A DNA stretch of 41,621 nt. It comes from Candidatus Poseidoniaceae archaeon (GTDB taxonomy: Archaea; Thermoplasmatota; Poseidoniia; Poseidoniales; Poseidoniaceae). Within the stretch, counting starts at the first letter, position 1. Every line of letters begins with the position of its first letter. The stretch spans positions 1 to 41,621 of the forward strand of contig JANXHP010000022.1 of NCBI GenBank assembly GCA_024958795.1, read 5' to 3'. Of this stretch, positions 1 through 35,404 are shown piece after piece. The notes under the pieces were generated by a model. That model was not told the DNA's origin. It was given only the letters and a program-made list of their open reading frames with translations, and searched no databases. The translations under genes and the position numbers were made by a program.

Positions 1-1
1 T

Positions 2-2314
2 GGAGTAGATGCTGATATTGAGGTCAGTGTATTGATTTCTACGCTTGAAGGTATGGAACTTCATAACCAATCAACCAATTATACAATATTGGCTTCGAGC
101 AGTACTCCAATCGATTACTCATTTCCAAACATGCCATATGGTTTTTCAAACCTTGTTGTTACTATGACTGGAGATACTGGCACTGTTGATTCAAATTATG
201 TCACAGAATTTAACAGAACGATTCAACGGCTTCGTCCAGCACAATTATCAATTGAAGAGATAACAGTAATTCCAGTAGATAGTTCAGGAAATCCAACAGG
301 TAATGAGAGTATGAGAGATGGAGATTATGCAATTATTAGCGCATCTGTAGAAAATCTTGGTGACTTACAATGGTCAAGTGATGTTGATGTTTTCATTAGT
401 GGTCAAGATTATCTTGAATCACATATGGCGAGTGCAAGTATTGCTGCCACTTCAACTACAATATTACAATTTTATTCTTCTACGCAGTTTGATGAAACTA
501 ATTCGAATCTTAGTTCTCATTACTCGGTAAATGTTTCAATCACAAGTCCGCCTCCATCTCAAAATGAATTATTCCAAATCACTACTTTTGAGGTTGGACC
601 ACCACCTTTGGCGAGAATTGATATGAATCTATTGCACCTTAATCCAGATGTAAACGCAGGTGGAGTGGCACTGTGGAATTTATCTGTAGAAAACAATGGA
701 GATATTGACTATAATGGAACAATAACTTGCGTATTTAGTGGAGGGGAAGTAGAATATTCTAGTTTGATTGACCTAGCACCTACTAACAATACTACGATTT
801 CAATAAGCGCCTCGGCTCGTCCAGGGGTTCTAACCTGCCAGACCGATGAGCAGAGGATTTGGGATGATTCAACTAGCCCCGTTTATTCGACTCTTTCCAT
901 GACTGCTGCAGCATTTGAAGCTGCTGGATCATCTTTTCCAGCCACATTAGGTGGTCCTTGGCATAAAGGAGATGTAGCAACCTTTTCGATGCTGGTTAGG
1001 AATCATGGTGATAATGACGGAATGGTTCAACTACGTTGTGAAATAAACGGCGTTGTAAGTTTGAGTGAATCGTTAAGTTTAGCCGTTGATGCTGCAGGTG
1101 AAGTCTCCGTAGATATTCAAATGATTACAACAGGTCAAAACCAAGTCAATTGGTCATTGGTTTCTTCTAACGGTGCGATAGATTCGGGGTTGGAAGGAAT
1201 TATCAACATACCTGTGTCTAGCCAGCAAAGTATTACGCCACAAATTAGTACTGTTGAATGGGATTCTACTAATGGTATTACTTTCACATGGGAAGTTGAA
1301 CTTGACACAGGTGTTGAAAGAGAGATTCAATTACGATTAGGATATGATTTAGGCGGTTCAGAAATTTATCCATTTGATTCGATAATCACCGTATATCCTG
1401 GAATGACTACTGGGCAATATGTGATTGGGCATATTGATGCTGAAAAAGTAGCAATACGCGTTAATTCTGTTAATTGGACCTTGGGACCTGGGCCAACATC
1501 TGCAACAAAGTTGGTACCCACGGAACGTCCAGCATATTCTATTCTAATGAATCCACTATCTTCTCCGCGAGATCCAACAGAAGGTGATGAGGTGAGTATT
1601 ACTGTAGATATTTCAAATACCGGTTTGATTGATGGAATTTCTGGCCAACTATTTATTGTTGATTCAAATGGTGTATTGCTGGCTCAAAGTGAGACTGATA
1701 TCCTACTCTCTGGGGAAGAAAAGGAAATTATTCTCAGTGTTGTTTGGCCATCTGGCTCCGATGTTGGTTTGACCGCAAAGTGGAGTATTGGTCAGCAAAT
1801 TATCACTTCAAGTCAAACTTATTCTTCTGGTGTTGCAGTTTCTTCTTCATCCCAGTCATATGAGATTCCGTGGATTGGAATATTATCTGGAATTGCGATT
1901 GCAGGTGCCGTTATCCTTGCAATGAGGCTCATGAATACATCAAAAGAGAGCACTTCTGCAAAACCTCAAAGCAAGAGTAGAACTCCAAAAACCAAGAAAC
2001 CGAATACAAAATCAAAAACCGTCGCTACTAGTAAAGACAGAAAGGTGCAAGTTGGTTGTCCAGAATGTGCAAGACAATTGCGTGTTCCGTCATCATATAC
2101 AGGTAAAGTTAGGTGCCCAGATTGTTCTACACGGTTTGATGTAACATCAAGAGATGAACCTAGTCAAGAAGAGGAAATTGAAGAAATAGTGGAGCAAGAA
2201 AAGAAAGAAATTTCGTGCCCAGATTGTGCACAGTCCTTGAGAGTCCCGACTGATTATACGGGCTCAGTACGTTGTCCTGCTTGTAAAATTGTATTTACAG
2301 CAAATTCTGGATAA
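2..2314 (+). CDS. Exported CARDB-type surface protein with cytosolic twin zinc ribbons (5' end missing)
   Basis: The frame is open to the left edge, so the N-terminus and any signal peptide lie outside the window; the TTG at 32 is only the first possible start inside it. Most of the protein is a chain of beta-rich modules of about 100 residues with patterns such as 'VENLGD', 'VENNGDIDYNG', 'VRNHGDNDG' and 'ISNTGLIDG', typical of CARDB/APHP adhesion-like domains. One hydrophobic segment (nt about 1865-1933) is followed by a basic Lys/Ser/Thr linker, which places the tail in the cytosol. The tail has two near-identical zinc ribbons, each C-x2-C-x15-C-x2-C (nt about 2057-2130 and 2216-2287), resembling the MJ0042 zinc-ribbon family. 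An extracellular binding region is thus joined to two intracellular zinc knuckles, so signalling or assembly roles are conceivable but unproven. The next gene starts 36 bases downstream on the same strand. Confidence 0.85.
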   Translation, partial: GVDADIEVSVLISTLEGMELHNQSTNYTILASSSTPIDYSFPNMPYGFSNLVVTMTGDTGTVDSNYVTEFNRTIQRLRPAQLSIEEITVIPVDSSGNPTGNESMRDGDYAIISASVENLGDLQWSSDVDVFISGQDYLESHMASASIAATSTTILQFYSSTQFDETNSNLSSHYSVNVSITSPPPSQNELFQITTFEVGPPPLARIDMNLLHLNPDVNAGGVALWNLSVENNGDIDYNGTITCVFSGGEVEYSSLIDLAPTNNTTISISASARPGVLTCQTDEQRIWDDSTSPVYSTLSMTAAAFEAAGSSFPATLGGPWHKGDVATFSMLVRNHGDNDGMVQLRCEINGVVSLSESLSLAVDAAGEVSVDIQMITTGQNQVNWSLVSSNGAIDSGLEGIINIPVSSQQSITPQISTVEWDSTNGITFTWEVELDTGVEREIQLRLGYDLGGSEIYPFDSIITVYPGMTTGQYVIGHIDAEKVAIRVNSVNWTLGPGPTSATKLVPTERPAYSILMNPLSSPRDPTEGDEVSITVDISNTGLIDGISGQLFIVDSNGVLLAQSETDILLSGEEKEIILSVVWPSGSDVGLTAKWSIGQQIITSSQTYSSGVAVSSSSQSYEIPWIGILSGIAIAGAVILAMRLMNTSKESTSAKPQSKSRTPKTKKPNTKSKTVATSKDRKVQVGCPECARQLRVPSSYTGKVRCPDCSTRFDVTSRDEPSQEEEIEEIVEQEKKEISCPDCAQSLRVPTDYTGSVRCPACKIVFTANSG

Positions 2315-2350: not shown

Positions 2351-3007
2351 ATGAGTGGGCATTTTCAAGAGTTTGAAGATGAATACTTAGAGACGATGTA
2401 TGGGTATTACGAGCATGACCAGGATGCACTGGTTAGAACTGGTGAATTAGCTAACGCCTTGAAAGTCTCACCCGCATCAGCGACGGAAATGGTTCAAAGA
2501 TTAGCATCAAAGGGTCTTTTAGATTACATTCCCTACAAAGGGGCTAGTTTAACAGAATTAGGACTTTCATTGGGGCGGCAGATGAAGAGAAGACATCGAT
2601 TGGCTGAAGTATTATTGGATAAGTTGCCTTTTTATGGTAATATTCATCATACTGCTTGTAGACTTGAGCATGCAATTGATGATGAATTAGAAATTGCCCT
2701 TTCTCTATTGCTAGATCAACCAAATGTTGACCCTTCGGGTAGAGAAATACCTCCTGCTAGAGATGAGATTGCAGCAAAAATAAATGAAATTGCAAGCGGT
2801 TTGCGTCCAATGAGTGCCCTCCCCGATAATAGTGAAGGCGAGATTAGAATGATGGTGTTAAGTGAAACTGGAATAACATCATTATCTGATTTGGGTGTGA
2901 AAATTGGTACACGTGTGAAGAAAAATAAAGGTCGATGGCAAACATCAGAAGGGATTTATATTGAAATGTCAAATAGTATAGCTGAAAAAATATTAGTGAG
3001 TTGCTAA
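2351..3007 (+). CDS. DtxR/MntR-family metal-dependent transcriptional regulator
   Basis: This 218-residue protein is a metal-sensing repressor. Residues 1-70 form a winged helix-turn-helix (residues include 'LKVSPASATEMVQRLASKG' and 'YKGASLTELG'). The following helical dimerisation and metal-binding domain has the family's His/Glu-rich pattern ('RRHRLAEVLL', then 'HHTACRLEHAIDDELE'). The last 60 residues resemble a FeoA/SH3-like domain. In this family Fe(II) or Mn(II) binding promotes operator binding near metal-uptake genes. No metal transporter lies beside it here, so its targets are elsewhere or are the neighbouring envelope genes. The family call is firm; which metal it senses cannot be told. 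Confidence 0.9.
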   Translation: MSGHFQEFEDEYLETMYGYYEHDQDALVRTGELANALKVSPASATEMVQRLASKGLLDYIPYKGASLTELGLSLGRQMKRRHRLAEVLLDKLPFYGNIHHTACRLEHAIDDELEIALSLLLDQPNVDPSGREIPPARDEIAAKINEIASGLRPMSALPDNSEGEIRMMVLSETGITSLSDLGVKIGTRVKKNKGRWQTSEGIYIEMSNSIAEKILVSC

Positions 3008-3074
3008 AATCTGTCAATTATTAGTCAATCATAAAAAGCAACGGCCTTTTTCAATAAATATGGAGGAGGGTGAG

Positions 3075-4628
3075 ATGGTGATTGAAAACCCTCCGAAGTC
3101 GAAGTCTAAAGAAAAAACTGGACTTTTTTCTAAACTATTGGCGGTCTCACCAATTGGTGAAAAGGCAACTGCCAAAGATTGGGAAGCGGTATTTCTCGCA
3201 ATAGATAAGCAAATCATCACTTTTGGTCTTCGAATCATTTTATTTTTGCCAGCATTTGCATTATTCACATACTTCATTGCATGGGCATTCTCTACGGGTT
3301 CCCCAGAGTGGTGGTTGGACAATATTGAGCCAACTATTGGATTGACTTTTTCAATTACATTAGTTGCAATCACATTCGTAATTCTCTTTGGATATATATT
3401 GTCACTCATCGTCCACCGTCATCGTCTTGGGCTTTCAAATCGTGTGTTTAACGATGAAGTAAAACTCTCAAATGCAGCACATAGGCCAGTACAATCATTG
3501 CAAGGATATGATGGGTTAGTTGATAGGATGAACAGAGCCATAAGTAAAACAAATACTAGTTTGCTATTCGCTATAATCAGTGCAGTTCTATTGAGTATTA
3601 TTTTCTATATCGGTTCTGAACATCAATCCGGAATGATACTGTTATTGGGGTCTTTTTCTCTGATGCTGTTATCGATTGGCCAACATTTGGCAACTAGGTC
3701 ACATCAATTTAGCATGGTTGATCGAACTGGGTTGCTTGATGCGTACGACCCTGCGATTCACCCTTCAACAATAAATTCTGTTTTCAATGATTTGTTAATG
3801 ACTCATATGGACCCTTTGATGAGGGCGCAATATGTTGATTTTACAAAAAGTATTGAAGCAAATATTCATGCAAATGTTGACGTTGATTTTGCGAGAGAAA
3901 AAATGTTGATGACATTGTATAGGCACTCATGTGGATTGGATAGAAATACAATGGTTTCTGAATTATCAGAGGTGTTGAATGACAATGGATTGCAATTGAT
4001 TATCTCTCATGAAGTATTCACATTGGAAGTTTGGCTTTCATTAATAGAACATGTCTCAAAGGCCTGTCCAGCATTCTTTAGGATGATAGACCGTTTAGAA
4101 CATGAGATTGAAGTTGGAAATAATCCAGCACTGAAAGACTTAGTATTCGAAGTTGATTTGGAAAATGTCGTTAGCAATAGAGCAAATTTGTTCACAATAA
4201 TTCATAATCTTGGTGAGACTGAAAGGACAGTAGTTTTTAGAGTTCAAACACCAGATTTCCGTCCGAATGATGTGGCATTGACCTACAGGTTAATGCCTGG
4301 GGAAAAATATTGGTGGTCTAATAGAGAACTGCCAAGCCACGCTCAAGGTGACGACGATACTTTGGGTGTAATGAGTGGATTGCTAAGAGATGGAACAGTT
4401 GCTTGGCAGTCACTATTACCAACTACTACAGGAGAAGCAACCGTTTCTATTCGCCTTGAACAACAAAGTGGAGAATTATTGGTCGGTAGGCAAATCAATG
4501 TTAGAGTAAGATCTGAATTTAGAGCAATGGTACGTTCGTCTGGTTCACTCGCTGCTAATTTGACAGGAACTCTTGGATTATTGAGTGCAATCTTCATGCA
4601 AATGTATGCACTATTTGGTCAATATTGA
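3075..4628 (+). CDS. Polytopic membrane protein of unknown function
   Basis: I do not recognise a family. An ATG exists at 3060, but the ATG at 3075 is preceded by GGAGG (3062-3066) at 8-base spacing, so 3075 is the better start (517 residues). There are four hydrophobic segments in the first 200 residues (nt about 3225-3290, 3340-3405, 3550-3615 and 3630-3690), a soluble alpha/beta region of about 280 residues, and a final hydrophobic stretch at the C-terminus ('LTGTLGLLSAIFMQMYALF'). The soluble part ends in a beta-rich stretch (nt about 4200-4530). The gene follows the DtxR-type regulator by 67 bases in the same direction; co-transcription is possible but not shown. Confidence 0.75.
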   Translation: MVIENPPKSKSKEKTGLFSKLLAVSPIGEKATAKDWEAVFLAIDKQIITFGLRIILFLPAFALFTYFIAWAFSTGSPEWWLDNIEPTIGLTFSITLVAITFVILFGYILSLIVHRHRLGLSNRVFNDEVKLSNAAHRPVQSLQGYDGLVDRMNRAISKTNTSLLFAIISAVLLSIIFYIGSEHQSGMILLLGSFSLMLLSIGQHLATRSHQFSMVDRTGLLDAYDPAIHPSTINSVFNDLLMTHMDPLMRAQYVDFTKSIEANIHANVDVDFAREKMLMTLYRHSCGLDRNTMVSELSEVLNDNGLQLIISHEVFTLEVWLSLIEHVSKACPAFFRMIDRLEHEIEVGNNPALKDLVFEVDLENVVSNRANLFTIIHNLGETERTVVFRVQTPDFRPNDVALTYRLMPGEKYWWSNRELPSHAQGDDDTLGVMSGLLRDGTVAWQSLLPTTTGEATVSIRLEQQSGELLVGRQINVRVRSEFRAMVRSSGSLAANLTGTLGLLSAIFMQMYALFGQY

Positions 4629-4688: not shown

Positions 4689-5696
4689 ATGCGCGGAATG
4701 AAAGACGATGCTGAGGAGAAGCCCGATGCGGAGCTTCGTGAGGAACTTCAGACAATGGAGGCGAAAGTCCGTAAGTTGCGAGAAACACGTAATTCATTCA
4801 GTGATTCTGCTAAGCAGACTGCTGATAAGCGCAATGCGATTCAAGCACAATTCAAGGAACACAGAGAGAAATCCTCTCTAGTTCTTTCAGAAGTAAAAGT
4901 TATCCGTGCTGAGATAAAACTGTTCAAAGAGAAGAGAAATGCAATTCAAGACCAAGTCCGCCAATTAATCTCTCAAGCAAAGGGGCGTCGCGGTGAAAAG
5001 AACGAGAAGCGTTCTGCTACTGCTGAATTTGCCCAACTAAAGCAAGAGGTTGACAATATGGAAAGGACTTTCGAAACTTCAAGTGTTGGTCCAAAGAAGG
5101 AGAAGGAGATGATGGCAAGCCTCAAATTGAAGCACCGTCGTATTGCTGAATTAGAACCAGAGGTTGAGAAATTTGAACTTGTAAGTGTTGATTTGTCTGA
5201 TCTTGATGGCTCAATTAAAATTCTAAAGTCTGAAGCAGATGCTGCACATGCAGCAATGATAGAAGCAGTTGGCCGTGTTACAGAAAAATCAGAAGAATTG
5301 GATGAAGTATTTGCACATCGTGATTTCCTCAAAGCAGAAGGCGATAGGTTTCATGAAGAATATCTAGAGTTTAGAAAGAAAGCTGATGAGATGCATGAAA
5401 AGACGGTTGAGTTGATGAAGGATGTTGACAAAGCACGTGACCAATTAAAACTCGCAAAGAAAGAGAGAGAGTCTTGGATTACCGATCACAATAAATCCGT
5501 CAAAAGTCAAATGTCAACAGGTGCAAGTTCAGAAAAAGTTGCTGACGAATTAGTTAGCGGTTTGATTTCTTCTGGTTCTTTGAGAATGGGTGGAACAAGT
5601 AACAAAGACAGCGGTGGAACATCACGTCTGGCCATAGGAAAGTCCTCCAAAAAAGCGGGAATGCGCCGAATTGACATGCAAAACCGACGCCGATGA
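4689..5696 (+). CDS. Long coiled-coil protein (COG1340-like)
   Basis: This 335-residue protein is almost entirely charged and helical, with heptad-like runs of Glu, Lys, Arg and Leu from residue 10 to about 270, then a Ser/Gly-rich tail and a basic end ('MQNRRR'). It resembles the archaeal coiled-coil proteins grouped in COG1340, which have no settled function; a structural or SMC-like scaffolding role is guesswork. No ATPase motif is visible. The following nucleotidyltransferase starts 10 bases after the stop, and its ribosome-binding site overlaps this stop codon, so the two are probably cotranscribed. Confidence 0.8.
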   Translation: MRGMKDDAEEKPDAELREELQTMEAKVRKLRETRNSFSDSAKQTADKRNAIQAQFKEHREKSSLVLSEVKVIRAEIKLFKEKRNAIQDQVRQLISQAKGRRGEKNEKRSATAEFAQLKQEVDNMERTFETSSVGPKKEKEMMASLKLKHRRIAELEPEVEKFELVSVDLSDLDGSIKILKSEADAAHAAMIEAVGRVTEKSEELDEVFAHRDFLKAEGDRFHEEYLEFRKKADEMHEKTVELMKDVDKARDQLKLAKKERESWITDHNKSVKSQMSTGASSEKVADELVSGLISSGSLRMGGTSNKDSGGTSRLAIGKSSKKAGMRRIDMQNRRR

Positions 5697-30349: not shown

Positions 30350-33300
30350 ATGGGAGCAGATACTAGTTGTAGGTCTGCGGCGATTGCCTTAGTTTTCATT
30401 TTCTTAGTTTCCTCATTTGCGGGTCTTATTTCTAATCAAGAAAATGATATTTTGGAATACCAATCAATTCAATCTGCATCAACTCCGATTGGACAAAGTA
30501 GTTTGCTAACTGTTGGTTCCTTTCCAGATGGTTCAAACCAAAAAGTGAGTATTTCTGTTCCAGATGGAGAAGCAATTCAAACATTAGATTTGAATGTTGA
30601 AGCTGCAACATTGACAACATCCACTGCCTTTTCATGGGATGAATCAACTGATTATGCAACTGGAACTGTATATGATGGAATGGATGTTAATGGTACATCA
30701 TTGACAATATTGCCGCAAGGAATTGAATGGGATTTTGAAGGAAGTCAACAAGGTTGGACCTTTGGGACGGGATGGATGCATGGTGCTGATACAGGTCTCA
30801 GTGCGCCAAAGGTACATAGTGGCGTAGATGGAATTTACACATATAATGGAAATTACCCTAACAATATTGGTACCACTTATTGGGCAACTTCTCCTGCCTT
30901 TGATTGTTCAGGGTGCAGTGGCGCTTGGCAGTTGAAATATTGGAAGAGATTAGGAGTTGAGTCGAATTCTTGGGATCACGCTTATGTTGCAGTTACAAAT
31001 ACAAATGGTGGATGGCAAACAATTTATTCAAGCTCATACGTAAATGATAATCAATTCTATCAAGTGACAAATACGATTAGTAATTATATTAACGGCAATT
31101 CCAATTTCAAGGTTAGATTTGGGATTGGAACAACTGATTCTAGCGTCACATATACTGGATGGAATGTCGATGATGTTGTTATCGAACCAGTTGGTGGTGT
31201 TTCGGCGGGTGAAGGAAATTGGACGTCACAACCTTTCAGCCCCCTCTCTTTAGGAATGGGCGAGGATAGGGCGTTTGGAATGATGTATATGGATGCAGTC
31301 GTTCCTGCAGGTTCAATGTTCGATTGGAGTTTGATGGATGCCTCTACAGGCCAACTAATACCGCAATATTCCAATTTTGAAACAACAAGTATGGATTTAG
31401 GAATGGTAGACTGGCAAAAGTACCCGTCGGTTAGAATCAAAATCCATATGGGAACAGGTCAAGGGAATAGTGCACCAATAATCAATGGATTTCATTTTGA
31501 AGGAAAAATCTTTGAAGATTTCAAAGATGATCCGATAAGAATTGGTTGGCAATTACAGGGTTCTGCTTGGACAACTGGTACAATTAGTGGTACATCAGAT
31601 GTATTGTCTCCAATCTATAGAATGAGGTCTGGATTCGGTGCTATAGTCAGCCATTCAGTAATCAATGCAGGTTGCGAACTGCAATATACGTTAGATAGTG
31701 GCCAGTCATGGACAACACTTCCTAGTGATACGATGGAGTCGTTAAATTCACCAGAATTCATGATCCAATTCAGATTCACATCTACAGGTACTTGTAGTAT
31801 TGACACTTTTGATGTAGAATTAGTACATACTTCCGTTCCGGATGGACTTAGAATTGATGTGGGATTAGACGGCATTCCTGATTGGTCCTTGAATAACCCC
31901 GGAGATGGTCGTTTTGGAATACAGGATGAACATAGATTTGGTTCAGAATGGAAGAGTTCTAATTCAATACCAACAGCACCATCTTTCTTTGAATTATTAT
32001 TACCCGTTTCAGGAGTATCCGATTTTTCCTTTGCTCTGGCTAGTGATGTTGAAATGAAAAATCCATATACGACAATTTCAGTAGAGGGGACCTCAATTAT
32101 CAACAAACCATTATCTGACCTGCTGAATTGTAGGCAAATTAGTCTAACCTCTAGTGAACTTACATCTTTGAATAATGCACTAGGTGGAAGTAGTGACTTT
32201 TCGATGAAAGTAATCACTATCAGAGTTGGCTCTTCGGACTCTCCAGCTGAAGTGATGTTGGGTGGAATATTCGCACCATGGGATACCAACATCAACTTAT
32301 CATTTTCAGCAACAGATGCATTAGTATTAGCGCTAAATAGTGAACTTACATCAATAATTCCGACTGTTGGTGTTAAGGAAGTAAAATTGCCTGTTAGGAT
32401 GGGTAGCACGGGAGCGATTAGATTAACAGTAAACGGAGTTACTTCACAATCATCAGTAACTCCAGTTTCGCTTTCTGTTAGCAATGTAGTGGACACATTT
32501 ACTCCTAGTGTGGAATGGTATGAAGTTGAAAGTGTATTTGATTTCTCTAATTTAGGTGTCTCAAATGCATTATCTCATGCTAAGTCAAATGGCTGGTCTG
32601 TAGAGATGAAATTGGATGGACAGAATCAATTTTCTTCAATTAGATGCCCATTGACTTCACTGAATCTAACAGGTTCTAGTATCTCGGGTTGCACACTTTC
32701 TGGTGTTAATTTATTATGGACAAATGCTGGTGCAGATGGAAGAATTTCAGTAATTGATGCGGGTCAATATATGCAGGTAGAGCATCAATTCAAGTTCCCA
32801 GAATCTTGGAATGATGAACCTTCATTATCATTATCAGTATTTTTGATTGCACCAACAGGTCCGATGATTCCAGTAAACATGGATTTCGGTCTTGGAAATT
32901 CAGCAGGCGTTGAAAATGATGTAACACTCAAATCGTGGTCTGTAGTTACATCTGAAGGAGTACATTCGGTAGAATCTTCTCCATATCTCAATCCAGGCCA
33001 ACAAGTTACTGTTGAAGCAGTATTAGGCTTTGAAGAAGTATTTTTGAGCCCATCACCTCGCTCAGGACAAACGTTGGTTAGATTACTTGAAGATGGCGTG
33101 GAAGTAACTTCCTCATCTTTGGTAGTCAATGGTATTGTATCGTTACCCTATACAATTCCAACTGGAGTAAGTTCAGTTGATTTAGAAATTATCCTAGAAC
33201 CCCTAAAGGGGCAAGGAATAGGTTATGAAAGTGTGAGTAATTTGACATTTGAGTTTGATACTATTGCGCCAGCAATACTCTCAATGGATGTTGAACAATT

Positions 33301-35404
33301 CGATCATCGTGATATATCTCCAAGAAACGAGTTTAATTTCCAAATTGCAGACAGGCCGGTATTACCGAGCCATGCGAAGGCCTACCTGTGGAAGTCTTGG
33401 GCAGACGATCTTAACATGGATGGTGAAATGGATGAAAACGAGGTAGTAATCAAAGATTTAATCTTACCAGATAATTTATCACATCTGCAAGCAGAATACA
33501 CATTGGAAATGGATACTTCGCTTGCACCAGATGGTTCATTTTTCTCTGCATGGCTTGAAATTGCTGACCCTGCAGGTAATGTTTTAGCAAATTCAGGAAC
33601 ATTTCAAGAACCGTTATTCAATGTACAGTTGCGAAGCGATGGTGCACCAAGTCTAGGTTCAAGTTCAAACGATTGGGGATTGGGTGAAAATGTTTGGATT
33701 CACCCAGGAGAATCAAATATTGTTGAAGTTTCTATCTGGGATAGTAATGGGATAAGTGATATTGAAGAGATAAATTTAGCACTATCTGGCAATACCTTTG
33801 ACCGTGTTGAAATAATTTGGTCTGGAATAGATCAAACTTGTTACTCAACAGAAATATATCTTAATATTGAATCCTGTGAGATAATTCCGCTTGAACCTTC
33901 TGAGGTGTTTTCCCTAGAAGGCCTCTTCGTTGTAAATTTCTCCTTTGAATGGGGATTCAACCCCGATGTTAGTCTATTGCGGAGACCACACTTGATGCTT
34001 AGCGATTTTCAAGGTCAGTCAAATAATTTTGATTTATCAAGTTTAGAATGGAAATTCTCTGGCGAATTGCTTATTGATAGAGATGAAATCTCTCTCTCAA
34101 CAAGTGATGAAGAGATTGATGGATTAGCTGAATGGATTACCCCAAGAACGGACATTGATATTTCTGGTGGAATTGATTGGTATAGAAGTGGTAGGGATGT
34201 AAACCAACCACTTGAATTAATGTTTTCAATATCCGATACTGATGTTGAACTTGATTATCTAGATGGTGAATTTTATGGAAGTATATTATCTCCTTTAGAA
34301 CCGGGGACTTATACACTGACTGGTACGTTATTTGATCCACCTAATGGGGCGATTGATAAAGGCCCTCAGACACCGTTTGCATGGTTTATAGTCGATGAAA
34401 TCTCTCCAACAATTGTAAGTGTTAACAGTCCAGTTCATAATTCTGTATTATATGAAAAAGATTGGAGCGACCTATCGATAGAAGTAACATTGTCAGAAGA
34501 AGAACAATTGAATGCAGAATCGCTATTGTTAAACTGGGCAATATATCCTGCTGGACTTGGATTGAATGTTGAGTCAGTAATAAATGGAACGCGTCCATTA
34601 TCTGTATTAGGTGGAAAATTAGTTGGCGACTCAATCCCGTGTAAGGCTATACTAGATTTAAGTGCAGAACTGAGTCAAGAATTACGTTCACAGAATTTAG
34701 AATTAAGAATTTGGATTACAGGTGAGGATAAAGCCGGACATGAGATATCAAAGACATTCAATGATATTGATGCCCCTCTCTCTATATGGGTCATTGAACA
34801 AAGAATTGCAGAATTTTCATTCGCAACACCGCAAATGGAGCCTAGTAAGGGATTACATGTCAATGAACAAGTAGATTTGGCGGTATTGATTAGCAATGAG
34901 GGTAGAGCAGCAGGTAGTGCTCAATTAGTACTAGAATTGGTTGAGAGTAATGGAGCAAGAACACGTTTAGATGCTAAAGAAATTTATCTTGAAGCAGGAG
35001 AAAATGTAGCATATACTCATCCGTGGACACCAGACAGAGTCGGAACAATGTGGCTTGAATTCCATATCATTAATGGCCCTAGTACACAAACTGCAACCGT
35101 ACATATTGATGAAACGAAATCTGATGGTATTGTTGCTAGTTTTGGTGAAATAAATCCAACATTACTAGTGATTATAATATTGCTATCGGTGACATTACTA
35201 GGATTGATCACATACGGTTTGAAAGGGAATGATATGTCCGAACGCAAGTTCAATCCTGCAAAACAAAATCGCGCATCAAAATCATTACCAAGCATAGAGG
35301 ATTTTGCTAAGTCTAAGAAACAAAACGAGGAAGAAGTCTTGGCACAAGAAGCATATTCCGGTTTGCATGATAGCAGTTCACCTGGTCAAAATCCGTATGA
35401 TTGA
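30350..35404 (+). CDS. Giant exported surface protein with C-terminal membrane anchor
   Basis: This 1684-residue protein starts with a signal peptide ('SAAIALVFIFLVSSFAGLIS') and ends with one transmembrane helix (nt about 35156-35217) plus a cytosolic tail of about 65 hydrophilic residues. Outside, residues ~120-290 form a jelly-roll-like domain with 'WDFEGSQQGWTFGTGW', 'SPAFDCSGCSGAWQLKYWKR' and 'GWNVDDVVIEP', similar to MAM-like domains of secreted peptidases. Many beta-sandwich repeats follow; 'WADDLNMDGEMDENEV' (nt about 33399-33446) is an EF-hand or dockerin-like calcium loop. A CARDB-like module precedes the anchor. It is probably an adhesin or binding protein; no catalytic motif was found. 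Confidence 0.88.
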   Translation: MGADTSCRSAAIALVFIFLVSSFAGLISNQENDILEYQSIQSASTPIGQSSLLTVGSFPDGSNQKVSISVPDGEAIQTLDLNVEAATLTTSTAFSWDESTDYATGTVYDGMDVNGTSLTILPQGIEWDFEGSQQGWTFGTGWMHGADTGLSAPKVHSGVDGIYTYNGNYPNNIGTTYWATSPAFDCSGCSGAWQLKYWKRLGVESNSWDHAYVAVTNTNGGWQTIYSSSYVNDNQFYQVTNTISNYINGNSNFKVRFGIGTTDSSVTYTGWNVDDVVIEPVGGVSAGEGNWTSQPFSPLSLGMGEDRAFGMMYMDAVVPAGSMFDWSLMDASTGQLIPQYSNFETTSMDLGMVDWQKYPSVRIKIHMGTGQGNSAPIINGFHFEGKIFEDFKDDPIRIGWQLQGSAWTTGTISGTSDVLSPIYRMRSGFGAIVSHSVINAGCELQYTLDSGQSWTTLPSDTMESLNSPEFMIQFRFTSTGTCSIDTFDVELVHTSVPDGLRIDVGLDGIPDWSLNNPGDGRFGIQDEHRFGSEWKSSNSIPTAPSFFELLLPVSGVSDFSFALASDVEMKNPYTTISVEGTSIINKPLSDLLNCRQISLTSSELTSLNNALGGSSDFSMKVITIRVGSSDSPAEVMLGGIFAPWDTNINLSFSATDALVLALNSELTSIIPTVGVKEVKLPVRMGSTGAIRLTVNGVTSQSSVTPVSLSVSNVVDTFTPSVEWYEVESVFDFSNLGVSNALSHAKSNGWSVEMKLDGQNQFSSIRCPLTSLNLTGSSISGCTLSGVNLLWTNAGADGRISVIDAGQYMQVEHQFKFPESWNDEPSLSLSVFLIAPTGPMIPVNMDFGLGNSAGVENDVTLKSWSVVTSEGVHSVESSPYLNPGQQVTVEAVLGFEEVFLSPSPRSGQTLVRLLEDGVEVTSSSLVVNGIVSLPYTIPTGVSSVDLEIILEPLKGQGIGYESVSNLTFEFDTIAPAILSMDVEQFDHRDISPRNEFNFQIADRPVLPSHAKAYLWKSWADDLNMDGEMDENEVVIKDLILPDNLSHLQAEYTLEMDTSLAPDGSFFSAWLEIADPAGNVLANSGTFQEPLFNVQLRSDGAPSLGSSSNDWGLGENVWIHPGESNIVEVSIWDSNGISDIEEINLALSGNTFDRVEIIWSGIDQTCYSTEIYLNIESCEIIPLEPSEVFSLEGLFVVNFSFEWGFNPDVSLLRRPHLMLSDFQGQSNNFDLSSLEWKFSGELLIDRDEISLSTSDEEIDGLAEWITPRTDIDISGGIDWYRSGRDVNQPLELMFSISDTDVELDYLDGEFYGSILSPLEPGTYTLTGTLFDPPNGAIDKGPQTPFAWFIVDEISPTIVSVNSPVHNSVLYEKDWSDLSIEVTLSEEEQLNAESLLLNWAIYPAGLGLNVESVINGTRPLSVLGGKLVGDSIPCKAILDLSAELSQELRSQNLELRIWITGEDKAGHEISKTFNDIDAPLSIWVIEQRIAEFSFATPQMEPSKGLHVNEQVDLAVLISNEGRAAGSAQLVLELVESNGARTRLDAKEIYLEAGENVAYTHPWTPDRVGTMWLEFHIINGPSTQTATVHIDETKSDGIVASFGEINPTLLVIIILLSVTLLGLITYGLKGNDMSERKFNPAKQNRASKSLPSIEDFAKSKKQNEEEVLAQEAYSGLHDSSSPGQNPYD

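Follow-up and report, generated by a model that had tools for sequence, protein, structure and literature searches.

The window analysed here, 41,621 nucleotides of a Candidatus Poseidoniaceae archaeon, opens with a gene whose product looks like an uncharacterised envelope tether and not a proven metal sensor. This product, hereafter the ribbon protein, is predicted from its sequence to be a secreted, single-pass envelope protein of the Candidatus (Ca.) Poseidoniales (Marine Group II), and the predicted layout recurs throughout that order.

Marine Group II organisms are described, in the sections of PMC6461757 drawn on here, as the planktonic archaea that are most abundant in the surface ocean and as having no cultured representatives; as adhesion candidates, these sections name flagella, thrombospondin, and flotillin, and not the ribbon protein. 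The words CARDB, DtxR, and S-layer are absent from PMC6461757 and PMC6336850. Within the open-licence literature, no published description of the ribbon protein was found by title or abstract start, and Poseidoniales papers with CARDB or DtxR numbered zero. An order-wide surface protein with a constrained, predicted cytosolic tail, encoded in a cluster with a possible main metal regulator, is a target for studying surface organisation. It is also a way into asking whether the Marine Group II surface is tied to metal supply.

The ribbon-protein ORF (2..2314, + strand, 770 amino acids) has no 5′ end in the window, as the contig begins there. In the draft genome G000 (1.88 Mb), the window makes up contig C135. 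The missing end, which the first-pass annotation had wished to see recovered, was found in the same genome: the first 117 bases of contig C132 are identical throughout to window positions 1–117 in reverse. Joined in translation, C132 adds 77 residues that include a hydrophobic signal peptide, and the ribbon protein becomes 847 residues long from a GTG start. This GTG lies inside a conserved upstream element (discussed below), and so the true start may instead be the ATG found 36 nt further on. The parts of the joined protein are, in order, a signal peptide, Ig-like beads, one of which is a CARDB domain, one membrane helix, a K/R-rich linker, and two MJ0042-like ribbons. The ORF and the layout first reported for it, an ectodomain with a CARDB domain, one helix, and two C-x2-C-x15-C-x2-C ribbons, are real, with CARDB scoring over its cut-off (Table 1). 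Hydropathy finds one strongly hydrophobic segment close to the C-terminus.

Table 1. Features of the ribbon protein and of the three genes that follow it, in window coordinates.
Feature	Position	Strand	Basis
Ectodomain, about six Ig-like beta-sandwich beads (count from strands)	2..1834	+	AlphaFold2 model, nearly all beta at residues 4–608; N-terminal 77 residues on C132
CARDB domain, residues 520–593	1559..1780	+	Pfam PF07705, 30.5 bits vs. cut-off 22.7
Single membrane helix, residues 622–640 (model helix 624–644)	1865..1921	+	Hydropathy 2.18 over 19 residues; model pLDDT 47–59
K/R-rich juxtamembrane linker, probably disordered	1922..2050	+	Family mean (23 rows of alignment A1) 10.7 K/R vs. 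5.4 D/E; pLDDT < 50 at 644–678
First MJ0042-like zinc ribbon (putative), C686-x2-C689-x15-C705-x2-C708	2051..2143	+	TIGR02098 at cut-off; pLDDT 86–88 over most
Acidic inter-ribbon linker	2144..2206	+	D/E mean 11.4 vs. K/R 3.2, 23 rows
Second MJ0042-like zinc ribbon (putative), C739-x2-C742-x15-C758-x2-C761	2207..2305	+	Zn_ribbon_5 25.0 bits, below cut-off
DtxR-family metalloregulator, next gene	2351..3007	+	PF01325 and PF02742 over cut-off; Cys103, Glu106, His107 invariant 22/22
TM522, five predicted membrane helices and an Ig-like domain (residues 355–486) predicted cytosolic	3060..4628	+	Model, fold matches, charge topology, order-only matches
CC335, coiled-coil protein (DUF7121-like), phylum-wide	4689..5696	+	PF23435 18.5 bits < cut-off 29; outgroup homologue 53.4; 223/292 genomes

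The AlphaFold2 model (42 rows, mean pLDDT 84, pTM 0.46) has beads up to residue 608, the helix at low confidence, a low-confidence linker, and two small beta folds at residues 681–714 and 734–766. The pTM is low, and the arrangement of the beads in the model is therefore not to be trusted. The best 50 Foldseek matches to the model are long multi-domain proteins (complement, alpha-2-macroglobulin, ciliary, and mastigoneme proteins) with low TM-scores, which are uninformative about function, and the Ig part has no PDB relative better than E 0.02.

The ribbons are on the edge of a known family. Ribbon 1 passes NCBIfam TIGR02098 (MJ0042-type zinc finger) at the borderline, its 20.9 bits equalling the cut-off of 20.9 exactly, whereas the Pfam scores fall short (Zn_ribbon_5, 25.0 bits against a cut-off of 29.3; Zn_ribbon_4, 23.3 against 30.3). 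A genome search with Zn_ribbon_5 gave matches in 4 of 7 genomes, with 0 of 7 over the cut-off. Thus, MJ0042-like, the label originally given, is the right wording, and Pfam membership is not claimed. The spacing of 15 residues between CxxC knuckles, the CP-x-C form of the knuckles, the L-x-V/I-P core, and a conserved F after the last Cys all resemble what we take to be the motif of the MJ0042 family. Bacterial MJ0042-type relatives often carry the ribbon at the N-terminus. Here, in contrast, two copies scoring below the Pfam gathering thresholds form the C-terminal end of a single-pass protein that has an Ig ectodomain. Zinc binding is predicted from the cysteine pattern. No solved close relative of the tail was found in the PDB, the best match being LysW at E 0.008, and the top hits of the profile are short C2H2-finger stretches.

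Charge on the two sides of the helix suggests the orientation. In the 23 rows of alignment A1, the segment before the helix averages 0.8 K/R against 4.1 D/E, and the excess is reversed after it (Table 1); K/R outnumber D/E just after the helix in 22 of the 23 rows and just before it in none of the 23. The signal peptide and the positive-inside charge together place the ribbons, by prediction, in the cytosol and the beads outside, as first supposed; the opposite orientation, with the ribbons outside, is not what the charges indicate. The basis of this prediction is a hydropathy window and charge counts, the modelled helix having a pLDDT of only 47–59.

At E ≤ 1e-3, the ribbon protein has matches in 143 of the 145 family genomes and 192 of the 193 order genomes, counts that include weak or partial matches which are not secure orthologues (e.g., G107, G172, and G224). 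This occurrence is far beyond chance. At the same threshold, a profile built from 23 orthologues matches 146 of 292 phylum genomes, including 81 of 81 sampled order genomes. The remaining 65 of these genomes, out of 211 lying outside the order, give no E-value better than 2e-16, and among the matches listed, all are partial, covering the Ig region or the tail. Since the outside matches are weaker, and partial among those listed, full-length relatives outside the order were rejected, and within this sample the full architecture is treated as restricted to the order.

The standard spacing is kept in both ribbons by 64 of the 67 distinct orthologues. The other three (L065, L066, and L070, all of one genus) retain all eight cysteines but close ribbon 1 with C-x3-C, one residue more than usual. 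In many genera, the second ribbon has one additional residue. All four cysteines of each ribbon are invariant in the 23 rows of A1. In the same rows, mean pairwise identity is 52% for each ribbon, compared with 32% in the helix, 27–28% in the Ig region, and 13% and 17% in the linkers; by this alignment measure, the ribbons are the best-conserved segments. The length of the protein ranges from 488 to 947 residues across orthologues (one over-long ORF of 1064 being ignored), with the tail persisting throughout. The N-terminus includes a hydrophobic stretch in 65 of the 67 orthologues, and CARDB is detected at E ≤ 1e-3 in 19 of the 42 members of alignment A6, the window's own protein included.

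The first-pass annotation read the protein as a receptor or a trans-envelope tether. Of these, the tether fits best, and the dedicated link to DtxR that accompanied the reading fits less well. We tentatively propose, as the most likely role, a tether across the envelope in which the ribbons would dock a partner inside the cell, as follows. The signal peptide would export the chain of Ig beads, and the helix and basic linker would anchor the protein. The two ribbons, joined by the acidic linker and presumed to bind zinc, would face the cytosol. The variable Ig chain would contact the surface layer or neighbouring structures, and the constrained ribbons would dock an intracellular or membrane partner, plausibly one encoded in the same cluster (CC335, or TM522 where present). 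A works-like model is offered by Myxococcus GltJ/AgmX, a component of a trans-envelope gliding complex with a cytosolic zinc ribbon and a GTPase partner. The likeness is one of working model, i.e., a membrane-anchored ribbon docking a cytosolic protein. In the sections of PMC3169522 drawn on here, AgmX is called a potential integral membrane protein and zinc goes unmentioned.

A possible but rather doubtful alternative is that the ribbon protein is an adhesin or S-layer-like surface protein, in which the ribbons have no specific partner and act simply as a folded domain that forms a cytosolic stop or confers stability. Archaea commonly encode CARDB proteins (914 non-redundant ones are counted in the relevant sections of PMC8416519), and similar ribbons are found on other small membrane proteins of these genomes. 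However, a passive module would not need sequence constraint, and the ribbons are the most constrained part of the protein. The same sections describe the VARTIG modules of Thermococcales, in which a large Ig protein with a CARDB homologue heads a putative operon of mostly membrane proteins. VARTIG modules differ from the present cluster: they are hypervariable and island-borne, whereas the ribbon gene is order-wide, with a conserved position and C-terminus. The ribbon protein thus lacks the hypervariable C-terminus and the mobile island that define VARTIG, its ribbons being the best-conserved part and its position being conserved.

The usual order in 40 representative regions is u2 (nucleotidyltransferase-like) and u1, which are divergent, followed by the genes for the ribbon protein, DtxR, TM522, and CC335. 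Adjacency, scored by script as a gap of −320 to 250 nt, holds for u2–u1 in 35 of 36 cases, u1–ribbon gene in 35 of 37, DtxR–TM522 in 32 of 35, and TM522–CC335 in 34 of 34. DtxR lies directly 3′ of the ribbon gene in 38 of the 40 representative loci (37 by script, and L039 by hand, where the DtxR match begins at the end of the ribbon gene). DtxR likewise follows in every one of the 76 genome_contigs loci that extend far enough (70 scored by script, 6 with over-long ORF starts; the remaining 3 of 79 end too soon), a set that shares species with the 40. Conservation of the linkage with DtxR, which the first-pass annotation had asked to be checked, is borne out. The spacing of the four cluster genes is operon-like, with overlaps or gaps of up to about 70 nt in most cases, and the order ribbon protein–DtxR–TM522–CC335 is kept in both families with few lineage losses. 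The downstream junction differs by lineage, being CC335–NDP-sugar transferase in 15 of 37 regions and CC335–pdxS in 13 of 37. Other nearby pairs are stable too (S3Ae–MTAP, 19/19; NDP-sugar transferase–d6818, 14/14). Because the whole neighbourhood is conserved, the cluster is not unique in this respect, and adjacency of the ribbon gene to DtxR is weak evidence for a functional link.

CC335 appears to predate the cluster. Three genes on either side of CC335 were inspected at ten outgroup loci, and none matches the ribbon protein, DtxR, or TM522. At two of these loci, L234 and L235, a large ORF four genes from CC335 has a weak match to the ribbon-protein profile (E 5e-4 and 9e-4), which we read as a generic Ig match. 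In four of the ten (L233, L234, L235, and L236), CC335 adjoins a homologue of the window's NDP-sugar transferase, and this pair may therefore be older than the cluster; outgroup neighbours also include purine-synthesis enzymes. Since CC335 is phylum-wide and its outgroup copies lack the other three families nearby, the cluster appears to have come together within the Poseidoniales, with the older CC335 gene as its nucleus.

TM522 matches occur in 77 of 292 genomes, all in the order; in G002 and G172 the only match is to a divergent second relative. No match was found in the four of four sampled genomes of genera g17 and g22 (drafts, 85–88% complete), in which the ribbon protein is kept. The TM522 model consists of four membrane helices, a helical part, an Ig-like domain, and a C-terminal helix. 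The charges of the loops next to its helices, counted as K/R versus D/E, average 0.6 versus 2.9 in loop 1, 6.6 versus 4.0 in loop 2, and 3.8 versus 0.9 before helix five. These values predict that the Ig-like domain is inside, even though the large domains are net acidic overall. The Ig-like domain has many Ig-like fold matches, with Z 6 to 7 in most rows, and no function is drawn for it because such Z values are common. The first row, with Z 9.9 and an rmsd of 17.9, is not credible. Foldseek lists the CARDB domain of PF1109 for this domain at E 0.006. The second, divergent TM522 relative is found in many order genomes (G000:C58:19581-20669 and equivalents).

None of the candidate partners in the cluster combines specificity with inseparability: TM522 gives no match in the sampled drafts of g17 and g22, DtxR lies elsewhere in g5, and CC335 is older. 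A broader proposal is that the cluster encodes a new archaeal trans-envelope complex, in which an Ig-bead protein would relay the state of the surface through paired cytosolic zinc ribbons to a cluster-encoded membrane/coiled-coil assembly, and possibly to the sole DtxR as well. Such a complex would have its own upstream element in part of the group and would be near-universal in Ca. Poseidoniales. We consider this proposal speculative and unlikely as it stands.

The gene next to that of the ribbon protein was first identified as a DtxR-type regulator, and both DtxR domains score well over cut-off (PF01325, 59.9 against 26 bits; PF02742, 61.3 against 27 bits). The invariant Cys, Glu, and His (Table 1), which we take to be the primary-site ligands of DtxR, are all present, and metal-dependent DNA binding is predicted from them. 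By the DtxR numbering that we assume, 12 of the 22 rows have Glu at the Met10 equivalent and the other 10 have Met, and the equivalents of His79 and His98 are non-His in 10 and 9 rows, respectively. This protein family shares with the DtxR/IdeR/MntR regulators (PDB 8pvt, 3hrs, 1bi0, and others) the DNA-binding and metal/dimerisation domains and the Cys/Glu/His positions, and differs from them at the Met10 and His79 equivalents.

It is this neighbour that invites the reading of the ribbon protein as a receptor for metal or envelope state, in which the Ig ectodomain senses the outside and the ribbons signal to DtxR next door. The adjacency of the two genes in both families and the invariant ligand positions of DtxR speak for this reading. 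Against the receptor is the finding that a DtxR-family match is unique in 12 of 13 genomes (G160 has two), which makes this DtxR probably a general metal regulator. Furthermore, in genus g5 (two genomes; L043 and L044), the DtxR slot is empty while the ribbon protein is in place, and a DtxR 40–41% identical to the window's is encoded elsewhere. An unrelated replacement was rejected, given this identity and the lack of any other DtxR in those genomes; on the same grounds, a relocated orthologue is likelier, and horizontal replacement by a close relative is possible and less likely. Finally, Pfam and NCBIfam domain searches of the tail identify no kinase, phosphatase, or recognised DNA-binding domain. 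A receptor is thus quite improbable, and the dedicated link between surface, metal, and transcription that was first conjectured loses ground to the tether.

An 18-nt element, GTGAAGGTGAAGAACCCC, lies at G000:C132:330-347 on the minus strand (L002 330-347), about 35 nt upstream of the ribbon-protein ATG. With up to 3 mismatches, it is found near the gene start in 9 of 20 representative Poseidoniaceae loci (g1, g3, g10, and part of g11) and in 60 of 79 genome_contigs loci; in the second family the count is 0 of 20. It is conserved between genera whose proteins are about 28–39% identical to the window's. In 15 genomes searched with up to 2 mismatches, an exact copy is present in 8, each at the ribbon locus, and 12 have a copy at the locus. 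The 12 further copies elsewhere all have 2 mismatches, versus 2 hits for a reversed control pattern. An A/T-rich, TATA-like stretch is found 29–33 nt upstream of the element in 68 of 69 loci, by a pattern chosen after viewing the sequences. The element starts 35, 36, or 37 nt ahead of the following ATG in 58 of the 69 loci, a spacing that is not bound to the frame; a coding role was therefore rejected. A role as DtxR operator is unsupported, as g2, g6, g7, and g9, with DtxR in place, lack the element. The element may mark the mRNA 5′ end or a site near the transcription start. In one group (L053, L117, L129, L145, L153, and others), a CCCACCC-N4-GGGTGGG palindrome, a possible operator, is found between the TATA-like stretch and the element.

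A co-translational or mRNA role, in which the ribbons would bind the ribosome or nucleic acid (possibly their own leader) at the membrane, is very unlikely. The upstream element would suit such a role, as would the matches to the zinc ribbons of anti-TRAP, RNA polymerase Rpo12, and ribosomal proteins. However, these matches are weak and of the kind generally given by small CxxC ribbons, and the second family lacks the element while keeping the ribbons.

Four small membrane proteins of these genomes (L187, at G000:C120, L188, L193, and L191) have a putative SAP-like start and one MJ0042-like ribbon each. A small tandem-ribbon protein (131–152 aa frames; L192 and L194; G000:C9:11276-11500) has two matched ribbons per frame in 7 of 11 genomes and one in the other 4. 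Within the window, the ORF at 30350-35404 encodes 1684 residues, is hydrophobic over a stretch at its C-terminal end, lacks any Pfam match at E ≤ 1, and on visual inspection looks like a large surface protein.
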